From Bacteroidota bacterium (GTDB lineage: Bacteria; Bacteroidota; Bacteroidia; JABEUT01): a stretch of 64,000 bases of DNA. The translations under genes and the position numbers were made by a program. The notes beneath the pieces are model-generated. The model searched no databases. It was given only the letters and a program-made list of their open reading frames with translations, and had not been told where the DNA came from. The stretch covers positions 1 through 64,000 of the forward strand of contig JABDCA010000006.1 in NCBI GenBank assembly GCA_013288345.1. Direction: 5' to 3'. Each line of letters begins with the position of its first letter. The first letter of the stretch is position 1. Below are positions 1,977-56,795 of the stretch, one piece after another.

Positions 1977-2927
1977 TTATGCAGGCACATCAAAGTTACC
2001 CGCTTCTTTTTTGGCGGTATGAAATTCCGCAATTATTTCATTCACTATGTCTTTTACCGGTTTTATTTCGCGCACGGCAGCAGCTATCTGTCCAATTTCA
2101 AGTTCGCCTTCCTCCATATCACCTTCAAACATTCCGAGTTTTGCTCTTGCTCTACCCAATATCGCATTCAATTCATCGGTAGATGCACCGCGGTCTTCAG
2201 CCTGCTGAACCTTTTCGTAGAATTTATTTTTTATAACCCTAACCGGTACGAGTTTTTTCAATGTAAGCACTGTATCACCTTCCTGTAATTCAATTACCCG
2301 CTTTTTAAAATTATCGTGTACCGATGCTTCATCAGATGCAACAAAGCGTGTACCAATTTGCACACCGTCGGCACCCAGGGCCATGGCAGCCAGCATAGAA
2401 CGGCCACTGGCAATACCACCTGCAGCAATAAGCGGAATATTTACCACCTGCTTTACCATTGGTATAAGGCACATAGTAGTAGTTTCTTCCCGTCCGTTAT
2501 GTCCACCTGCTTCAAAGCCTTCAGCTACAATTGCATCTACACCGGCATCCTGCGCTTTTTGTGCAAACTTTACACTACCTACTACATGCACAACGGTAAT
2601 ACCATGTTCTTTAAAATAGGGCGTCCATGCTTTGGGATTACCTGCCGAAACAAAAACGATCTTCACACCCTCCTCTACAATTATCTTCATTACCACATCC
2701 AAATCAGGATAAAGCAAAGGCACATTTACACCAAAAGGTTTATTGGTTGCTTTTTTACATTTTTGAATATGTTCTCGTAGCACATCGGGGTACATAGAAG
2801 CCGCACCAATAAGTCCAAGGCAGCCACTGTTGGAAGCAGCTGATGCAAGGCGCCAACCACTGGTCCATAACATACCGGCTTGTATTATGGGATACTTTAT
2901 TTGAAAAAGCTGCGTTATTCTGTTCAC
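1977..2927 (-). CDS. Nitronate monooxygenase / FabK-like FMN oxidoreductase
   Basis: An FMN-dependent TIM-barrel enzyme of the NPD/2-nitropropane dioxygenase family, which includes nitronate monooxygenases that detoxify propionate 3-nitronate and the enoyl-ACP reductase FabK. Visible motifs are the N-terminal IKYPIIQAGM, the EGFEAGGHNG flavin-site loop, and AAGGIASGRSMLAAMALGADGVQIGTRF-type phosphate binding. I place the start at the GTG at 2927, giving VNRITQLFQIKYP, because family members begin at this point and the 16 residues upstream fall in low-quality sequence beside a palindromic repeat; an ATG at 2975 is the alternative. Which of the two enzyme activities applies cannot be told from sequence. 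It leads an apparent operon with the two M16 genes. Confidence 0.85.
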   Translation of the reverse strand: MNRITQLFQIKYPIIQAGMLWTSGWRLASAASNSGCLGLIGAASMYPDVLREHIQKCKKATNKPFGVNVPLLYPDLDVVMKIIVEEGVKIVFVSAGNPKAWTPYFKEHGITVVHVVGSVKFAQKAQDAGVDAIVAEGFEAGGHNGREETTTMCLIPMVKQVVNIPLIAAGGIASGRSMLAAMALGADGVQIGTRFVASDEASVHDNFKKRVIELQEGDTVLTLKKLVPVRVIKNKFYEKVQQAEDRGASTDELNAILGRARAKLGMFEGDMEEGELEIGQIAAAVREIKPVKDIVNEIIAEFHTAKKEAGNFDVPA

Positions 2928-5048: not shown

Positions 5049-5248
5049 CAAGTCCGAAGGACTTGAACATGAGTAGCCACCGATAAAATCGGTGGTAATA
5101 ATGCAGGCACCTTATTACAACCCCGAATTGGGGTTGAACCCCAAAATAAATACTTTCACATTCAACACCCTTCGGGGTTGTTTTTGGAGCCAGATTAATC
5201 GCCACCGGTTACACCGGCGGTTACTAACGTTGAAGCCCTTCAGGCTTC
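5049..5248. repeat. Hairpin array A (six ordered hairpins)
   Basis: Six short hairpins follow one another: CAAGTCC-gaa-GGACTTG (5049-5065); CCACCGAT-aaa-ATCGGTGG (5077-5095); CAACCCC-gaatt-GGGGTTG (5118-5136); CAACaCCC-ttc-GGGgTTG (5163-5180, one mismatch); CCaCCGGT-tac-ACCGGcGG (5202-5219, one A/C mismatch); GAAGCC-cttca-GGCTTC (5232-5248). The linker GGTTACTAACRTTGAAGC near the end and AGTAGCC before hairpin 2 are shared with array B at 56594-56795. No regular spacer length exists, so it is not CRISPR. It could be a mobile REP-like element or a structured RNA. Confidence 0.85.
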
Positions 5249-5424: not shown

Positions 5425-5580
5425 AATGCAAAAAAATATTGTATAGGCAGGAATAGAAAACAAGATAAAATACCGCCAGAAACCGCCACTTTCCGCCAAA
5501 TATTAATATGGAAAAGATACTTCGACAGACTCAGTATGACAATAAGGGGGTATCAAAGTGTAATTATTTTTTAAGCAAAT

Positions 5581-5659
5581 AAAATTGAAAATCAACAAGT
5601 TAAGGCGTAACAGGGAGGTAGCAGGTGTTACCCCCCTCCTGCCTCTAATTTTCAATTTT
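5581..5659. repeat. Inverted repeat immediately upstream of the mscS promoter
   Basis: Perfect 12-bp arms AAAATTGAAAAT (5581-5592) and ATTTTCAATTTT (5648-5659) enclose a G/C-rich centre with a shorter GCAGG/CCTGC pair (5621-5625, 5638-5642). The right arm ends 3 bp before the -7 element, so the structure covers the whole promoter region. It may be an inserted palindromic repeat or an operator. Confidence 0.7.
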
Positions 5660-56450: not shown

Positions 56451-56511
56451 TATTTATTTGAAAAATATATCGCCCCAATGGGGCTTGCAAAGATTGGTTC
56501 ATCTTTTTATA

Positions 56512-56568
56512 CTACCAAGATTTAACCCCGATGGGGTTCTTAGTCCCATAGGGACAATATCTTGGTAG
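56512..56568. repeat. Cloverleaf-like structure ahead of array B
   Basis: CTACCAAGAT (56512-56521) and ATCTTGGTAG (56559-56568) form a perfect 10-bp closing stem around two hairpins, AACCCC-gat-GGGGTT (56524-56538) and GTCCC-ata-GGGAC (56543-56555). This part has no equivalent in array A. Confidence 0.85.
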
Positions 56569-56593
56569 AAACTCAACCTCTCCAAAAATACTC

Positions 56594-56795
56594 TAACCCC
56601 GAAGGGGTTAAACCTTAGTAGCCCCCGATGAAATCGGGGGTATAAATAGCAATACGTTTTGCAACCCCGTACGGGTTGAACCCCATAATATGAAGTCTTC
56701 TTTTTTTGTTCAACCCTTCCAGGGTTGTTATTATACAATCGTTATATGCCACCGATTTCATCGGCGGTTACTAACATTGAAGCCCTTCGGGCTTC
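56594..56795. repeat. Hairpin array B (six ordered hairpins, colinear with array A)
   Basis: TAACCCC-gaa-GGGGTTA (56594-56610); CCCCCGAT-gaa-ATCGGGGG (56622-56640); CAACCC-cgtac-GGGTTG (56662-56678); CAACCC-ttcca-GGGTTG (56711-56727); CCaCCGAT-ttc-ATCGGcGG (56749-56767, same A/C mismatch as array A); GAAGCCC-ttc-GGGCTTC (56779-56795). Order, length (202 against 200 bp) and the linkers AGTAGCC and GGTTACTAACRTTGAAGC match array A at 5049-5248. Confidence 0.87.

Follow-up and report, generated by a model that had tools for sequence, protein, structure and literature searches.

Inverted triple-hairpin arrays in a Bacteroidota genome: probable gene-less copies of an IS200-class element

The subject of this study is a pair of hairpin arrays, A and B, in a window consisting of the first 64,000 nucleotides of contig JABDCA010000006.1 of a Bacteroidota bacterium (lineage Bacteroidia, JABEUT01; GenBank assembly GCA_013288345.1). 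In all likelihood, A and B are non-autonomous copies, comparable to doublets of repetitive extragenic palindromes (REPs) that form hairpins (REPINs) or to miniature inverted-repeat transposable elements (MITEs), of an IS200-class element whose ends are inverted and consist of three hairpins each, and which in relatives encloses its own Y1 transposase gene. This explanation draws on the anatomy of the arrays, the covariation in their stems, and the bracketing of the gene in relatives, and further on the findings that related elements occupy different sites and that sister species lack A and B.

Anatomy and covariation of the arrays

Arrays A and B are colinear at the positions reported in the first-pass annotation of the window (about 73% identity on alignment), and all five of the base pairs that it described as changed on both sides are present, namely, three in hairpin 1 (hp1; C-G/T-A, G-C/C-G, and T-A/C-G), one in hp2 (A-T/C-G), and one in hp5 (G-C/A-T). 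What had not been noticed is that each array is an imperfect palindrome of about 200 bp, in which a half-unit (hp1, an AGTAR foot, hp2, and hp3) is followed by its inverted copy (Table 1). Array A is 68% identical to its own reverse complement over 198 bp, and array B has 50-nt inverted arms that are 82% complementary; since the arrays match their own reverse complements, hp6, hp5, and hp4 are hp1, hp2, and hp3 inverted. The minimum-energy fold of either array is a single long hairpin, with z-scores as RNA (about 10 bases of flank on each side) of -7.24 (A) and -8.25 (B) and a z-score as DNA of -7.71 (B), and none of 200 shuffled sequences folded as well in any of these three cases.

Table 1. 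Positions of the arrays, their half-units, and other repeats (window coordinates unless a contig or locus is named; right half-units are read outside-in; E values are for matches to covariance model R2)
Feature	Position	Strand	Details
Array A, complete element without a gene, made of two half-units (three hairpins each) in inverted orientation	5049..5248	+	
Array A, left half-unit	5049..5138	+	R2 match 81.5 bits, E 3.4e-14
Parts of the left half-unit of A			hp1 5049-5065; foot AGTAG 5072-5076; hp2 5077-5095; hp3 5118-5136
Array A, right half-unit	5161..5248	-	R2 match 80.5 bits, E 5.2e-14
Parts of the right half-unit of A			hp6 5248-5232 (= hp1); foot AGTAA 5225-5221; hp5 5220-5202 (= hp2); hp4 5180-5163 (= hp3)
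Array B, complete element without a gene, made of two half-units (three hairpins each) in inverted orientation	56594..56795	+	
Array B, left half-unit	56594..56680	+	R2 match 87.1 bits, E 2.6e-15
Parts of the left half-unit of B			hp1 56594-56610; foot AGTAG 56617-56621; hp2 56622-56640; hp3 56662-56678
Array B, right half-unit	56709..56795	-	R2 match 91 bits, E 4.3e-16
Parts of the right half-unit of B			hp6 56795-56779; foot AGTAA 56772-56768; hp5 56767-56749; hp4 56727-56711
Further full arrays, same genome	C46:8853-9050; C28:8696-8864		
Dispersed repeat downstream of array A	5503-5635		two copies at 89-90% identity on the same genome's contig C1, several weaker on other contigs
Hairpin repeat of another kind, immediately upstream of array B	56463-56575		outer stem CTACCAAGAT/ATCTTGGTAG, two inner hairpins
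Hairpins flanking Y1 gene L010	L010:1358-1391, 1935-1968, 2012-2044		

Two covariance models were used: R1, which was made from arrays of the source genome only, and R2, which describes the whole three-hairpin half-unit and was trained on 27 half-units (the nine wide inverted pairs described below supplied 18). In the window, R2 has no matches below E = 0.05 other than the four half-units that make up A and B. A covariance search, as the first-pass annotation had proposed, did reveal copies beyond A and B in the source genome (a 2.99-Mb draft of 90 contigs, 86.7% complete): 16 half-units match at E ≤ 1e-3, and besides A and B there are two more full arrays (Table 1), with further half-units that are solitary or in the same orientation. 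A half-unit consensus was obtained by aligning the left halves of these four arrays with the reversed right halves. In this genome, hp1 is mostly NAANCCC GAA GGGNTTN and is followed by a short linker and the foot AGTAG or AGTAA, hp2 is mostly CCNCCGAT GAA ATCGGNGG, and after a spacer comes hp3, CAACCC..GGGTTG.

The stems vary while pairing is kept. In the hp1-hp2 part of eight half-units from the source genome, 98.3% of the cells are paired and 5 of the 15 pairs carry two-sided changes. In an alignment of 27 half-units, these values are 96.0% and 16 of 22 pairs, with a covariation score of 0.474 against 0.144 when shuffled and at most 0.076 when slid. Among the 150 best of 256 R2 matches (148 distinct half-units), all 22 pairs show two-sided changes and the score is 0.562 against 0.173 shuffled, in an alignment that is fitted to the model and hence leans toward pairing. 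The covariation is therefore strong, and not at the chance level that would have spoken against the original observation. In the same 150 matches the foot is nearly constant, with A at position -5 in 138, A at -4 in 127, T at -3 in 141, and A at -2 in 142; G stands at -4 in 10 of them, i.e., an AATAR foot prevails, and the genus of the window reads AGTAG or AGTAA.

Compensatory changes might also arise without selection, if a template switch of the replication machinery rewrites one palindrome arm to match its partner. Template-switch correction of quasi-palindromes is a known process, and the stems are indeed perfect or nearly so. It is nevertheless extremely unlikely to be the explanation, as the loop class and the foot are constant while the stems differ across phyla, and it leaves the bracketing of a gene unexplained; template switching may supply the double mutations themselves.

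Read from the outside inwards, the hp2 loop is exactly GNA in 30 of 47 upstream ends and in 27 of 41 downstream ends. The polarity of the loop is thus alike at both ends when seen from outside and, therefore, inverted between them. This polarity fits a reading of the two ends on separate DNA strands, one for each end; it fits one transcript less well. GNA triloops are regarded as unusually stable in DNA; the computed energies did not bear this out (strands with GNA and with TNC loops had equal folding energies with both DNA and RNA parameters), and the argument makes no use of it.

This polarity bears on the proposal that the arrays are structured RNAs, or paired terminators that serve the neighboring genes, with selection acting on the transcript, of which the structured-RNA form had been put forward in the first-pass annotation. 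In its favor are the strong predicted folds of A and B and a number of terminator-like sites. The A region has two, at hp1 and hp6, where shuffled sequence gives 0.4; the B region has three, where shuffled sequence gives 0.5, two of them being at hp1 and hp4 and the third outside the array. One transcript predicts, however, that G-T wobble pairs yield to A-C in the downstream ends, and no such reversal was seen (43 G-T to 9 A-C upstream, 17 to 11 downstream), which is a weak test given that the model favors G-T. Moreover, the Rfam covariance models gave no match at gathering score in the window, the half-units bracket a transposase gene with inverted ends in many genomes of six phyla, and the arrays are missing from the same spacers in sister species (see below). 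An RNA or terminator function as the primary role is consequently very unlikely, while a secondary one as terminator could still be served by the arrays.

Half-units around Y1 transposase genes

R1 matches at E ≤ 0.01 were present in 26 of 60 genomes (the source genome counted), including all but two of the 11 genomes that belong to the genus. Pairing and distance to genes were analyzed for the 129 listed R1 matches at E ≤ 5e-6, leaving aside weaker listed and unlisted ones, and for 91 listed Y1 rows, leaving aside most weaker ones and one stronger row (G041:C180). Among these matches, 44 pairs of neighbors lie at most 1 kb apart, and 37 of them are in + - orientation with hp1 outermost (5 are - + and 2 are - -). 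The 37 inverted pairs fall into two size groups: 28 span 153-239 bp, like A and B, and 9 span 633-804 bp. Eight of the nine listed wide pairs enclose a Y1_Tnp (PF01797) gene, at a distance from half-unit to domain match of 54-83 bp on the 5' side and of 133-139 bp on the 3' side. A Y1 gene flanked by the same hairpins, which the first-pass annotation had suggested looking for, is thus found in relatives. Overall, 24 of the 129 matches have a Y1 gene within 700 bp where 0.21 are expected (binomial P about 1e-41, matches from the same genome not being independent).

The enclosed gene codes for an HUH/Y1 transposase (TnpA) of about 148 amino acids, and the gene-bearing elements measure about 630-730 bp. 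Seven of the eight proteins enclosed by wide pairs were aligned, the eighth (L074) ending early, after the Y motif; they share DH[IL]H, Y[VI]KNQ..HH, and W[QS] before a GYGAF stretch. A scan of genome contigs with this alignment gave at least 576 confirmed stretches, of which the best 79 distinct loci were kept and searched with R2. Within 250 bp of the gene and at E ≤ 0.01, half-units lie on both sides at 40 loci and on one side at 24. At other cut-offs, the numbers with both, one, and neither side were 40, 19, and 20 (E ≤ 0.001) and 46, 20, and 13 (E ≤ 0.1). At least one of the 79 loci (L266) is the same element as a training locus (L072), with an identical protein, and R2 was partly trained on gene-flanking half-units; R1, which first gave the bracketing, is free of those. 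The 40 loci with both sides occupied belong to Bacteroidota (31), Verrucomicrobiota (4), Chlorobiota (2), and Ignavibacteriota, Kiritimatiellota, and Elusimicrobiota (1 each), and records of cultured genera are among the loci bracketed on both sides, e.g., Chryseobacterium, Belliella, and Algoriphagus. In a phylum sample of 148 genomes, 25 (the source genome counted) contained R2 matches at E ≤ 0.001 and 123 contained none.

All three of the proteins tested pass the cut-off of the NCBIfam IS200/IS605 model (NF033573), and against the NCBIfam model REP_Tyr_transpos, with a cut-off of 80, the same three gave 29.2 bits, 21.3 bits, and no match. A TnpA profile matched seven PDB sequences, all of them transposases, and resembles solved structures of the IS608 type. 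Y...Q..HH occurs in 45 of 49 bracketed proteins, and Y[IV]..NP in none of the 49. Judged by sequence, the enzyme is of the IS200 class and no REP-associated tyrosine transposase (RAYT), and it carries the signature of TnpA-Y1 subclass 1.2, of which it is a candidate member. In a tree of 143 Y1 proteins, the bracketed rows cluster, with 24 label changes against 40.9 when shuffled. One well-supported branch of 64 rows holds 55 unbracketed, 8 one-sided, and 1 bracketed protein, together with both Y1 genes of the source genome among its rows, and the rest of the tree holds 8 unbracketed, 23 one-sided, and 48 bracketed ones; the tree is based on few columns with rough support values and an unsettled bootstrap, and it does not include L144 and L181, which were too different from the other rows.

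These features decide on a second alternative, namely, that the arrays belong to the known kind of system in which GTAG REPs are paired with a class-2 TnpA-REP. The GTAG or GTAA foot in the window arrays, the inverted pairs, and the gene between inverted repeats all resemble it; the enzyme, on the other hand, passes the IS200/IS605 model and fails that of RAYTs, its motifs are those just given, the foot is mostly AATAR, and each end has three hairpins. Membership in that system is very improbable indeed. Of the first-pass suggestion of a REP-like element moved by a RAYT-type transposase, what stands is the Y1 gene between inverted half-units in relatives; the RAYT assignment falls, with an enzyme of another class and a foot that is mostly AATAR rather than GT[AG]G.

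Probable mobility, sites of the arrays, and the source genome

Related elements occur at different sites. Two Bacteroidia assemblies contain a 0.73-kb gene-bearing element that is 92% identical between them (L294 and L296); the match stops within 3 bases of hp1, and no similarity was found between the compared flanks. Likewise, similarity between two copies in genome G015 (74% identical) stops at hp1. Arrays A and B themselves are absent from the orthologous spacers of three sister species (G009, G005, and G004), and R2 found nothing at E ≤ 0.1 on these six loci. At the B site, the spacer is 371 bp in the window and 12 bp in G009, and the genes abut in G005; at the A site, it is 666 bp in the window, about 61 bp in G009, and about 46 bp in G005 (the spacers were counted by eye). 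G004 has other sequence at both sites.

A MITE moved by an unrelated DDE transposase, with the Y1 gene hitch-hiking, would offer another route to dispersal. It could account for genome G056 (L121-L133), where a longer inverted repeat, CAATGTCGTTTnnTTAAG, encloses many of the arrays and sites far apart carry copies that are nearly identical. G056 is, however, the one genome in which this outer repeat was noticed (elsewhere it was not searched for), similarity stops at hp1 in L294/L296 and in the G015 pair, and the geometry around the gene is constant; this alternative has a minimal probability.

By analogy with what is known of IS608-type and RAYT enzymes, it can be proposed how A and B would have been mobilized by TnpA. 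The enzyme would bind the hairpins and the foot in single-stranded form and would use a separate strand for each end, namely, the one on which hp2 is preceded by the foot and the loops are mostly GNA. Its tyrosine would cut at the outer foot of hp1, and it would act in trans on gene-less copies. The compensatory changes and the constant foot and loop would arise because the enzyme reads shape, foot, and loop and not the letters of the stems, which would drift freely as long as pairing is kept.

Several observations weigh against the explanation of A and B as copies of such an element. The ninth wide pair (G008:C18; L079:514-1317, 804 bp) encloses an open reading frame that is not Y1, and 15 of the best 79 loci have no half-unit beside the gene at E ≤ 0.01. 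Of the Y1 loci of relatives, flanks were judged in 66 of 76, and 9 are bracketed, 7 one-sided, and 50 not; most Y1 genes of relatives go with other flanks or none, and the end type therefore belongs to some Y1 genes and not to all. In 7 of the 16 locus pairs compared, similarity continues into the flanks, as in plain inheritance. Other repeats share the spacers of the window, so that the difference in length is not all array, the spacers are too diverged for exact junctions at A and B, and presence or absence between species cannot separate gain from loss. The near-identical arrays of G056 may have spread by another route. Finally, the assembled source genome has no tnpA of this clade, and its search with the protein alignment gave only the two known Y1 genes. 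Since no matching tnpA is assembled, A and B would have been mobilized by a gene in the missing part, by a gene since lost, or by a diverged relative.

A model-free test for inverted repeats at the 66 Y1 loci, with a null that combined flanks from different genomes, placed 28 loci above the 95% point and 6 above the 99% point; it is a weak test, since end types shared between genomes inflate this null. The eight strongly bracketed loci (L072-L078 and L080) were all below the 99% point of this inflated null.

The two Y1 genes of the source genome, L009 and L010, were considered as the enzyme of A and B and rejected: they have other flanks, stand on another branch of the tree, and show no R2 match at E ≤ 1. 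L010 lies on contig C3 between inverted CCACGACCTAAAGGTCGTGG hairpins that come with GGCTAAAGCC and have a similar outer linker. Ends of the CCACGACCTAAAGGTCGTGG type are also present around Y1 genes of G002 (L156) and, in a version whose stem has changed, of G023 (L175). There may be several end types, each with its own enzyme clade. The repeat directly upstream of array B may, in the same way, be the end type of the L009 enzyme.

Further observations concern the neighboring repeats and the odd wide pair. Stretches similar to the repeat upstream of array B occur on contigs C42, C69, C4, and C19 of the source genome, and a TTGGTAGAA motif, similar to this repeat, adjoins L009. Short repeats of the CTGAGC..GTCGAAG type lie beside several elements, e.g., near 5520 in the window, upstream of the L013 array, and in G056. 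The open reading frame enclosed by the ninth wide pair looks like that of a membrane protein by eye, and could be cargo or a host gene between two insertions.

Relation to known systems

REPs, bacterial interspersed mosaic elements (BIMEs), and REPINs with their RAYTs share with the present elements short intergenic palindromes, a tetranucleotide-like foot 5' of the hairpin, and inverted pairs (PMC2817692, PMC3733652, PMC6006769), and in REP/RAYT systems, too, a Y1 gene lies between inverted repeats and gene-less copies occur elsewhere in the genomes. As in REPINs and BIMEs, two inverted hairpin units form one larger hairpin that is dispersed between genes, the + - arrangement of neighboring pairs being the prevalent one here. 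The present elements differ in that the enzyme is of the IS200 class with Y...Q..HH and not class 2, the foot is mostly AATAR and not GT[AG]G, and the three hairpins of an end follow a fixed order; units without a gene measure 153-239 bp among the listed pairs. In a passage of PMC3733652, GTAG repeats are assigned to Proteobacteria, Cyanobacteria, Chloroflexi, and the PVC (Planctomycetes, Verrucomicrobia, and Chlamydiae) group, Bacteroidetes not being named for GTAG there, and CGTC repeats to five phyla including Bacteroidetes.

With the IS200/IS605 family (e.g., IS608 and ISDra2), the elements share an HUH/Y1 TnpA over the NCBIfam cut-off, terminal hairpins, and a small one-gene layout. Known members are described in PMC2817692 as being without terminal inverted repeats, whereas here the ends are inverted copies of each other, with three hairpins each. 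There is also a likeness to TnpA-Y1 subclass 1.2, which has Y---Q--HH, DH[IV]H, and a W before the GYGAF stretch and occurs in Bacteroidota; according to PMC6006769, this subclass is generally without typical terminal secondary structures, in contrast to the 40 of the best 79 loci that are bracketed on both sides, in six phyla, and the 24 bracketed on one. According to the same source, subclass 2.6 consists mostly of Bacteroidetes genes, with atypical structures and a motif of the Y..NP kind (PMC6006769).

That no named family matches, as the first-pass annotation had it, holds within the searches made, and a description of such a pairing of enzyme and ends was not found in the literature searched, with ISfinder and most subscription journals outside its scope. 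We know of no settled account of the origin of REP repeats and RAYTs from IS200-type elements. On a wider view, for which the chances appear evenly balanced, the elements would represent a third partnership between Y1 enzymes and palindromes beside IS200/IS605 and RAYT/REP, in which IS200-class enzymes, separately from the RAYTs, have inverted multi-hairpin AATAR ends. This partnership would extend over six phyla or more; its stems, and possibly entire end types, would diversify with the transposase, and gene-less copies would persist where the gene has perhaps been lost.

The elements account for unannotated intergenic hairpins in the genomes of the phylum sample that have R2 matches, and they provide a candidate function for a transposase group that has been described as generally lacking terminal structures. 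As an IS200-class transposase with REP-like inverted ends is bracketed in cultured genera, the recognition of these ends can be tested at the bench.
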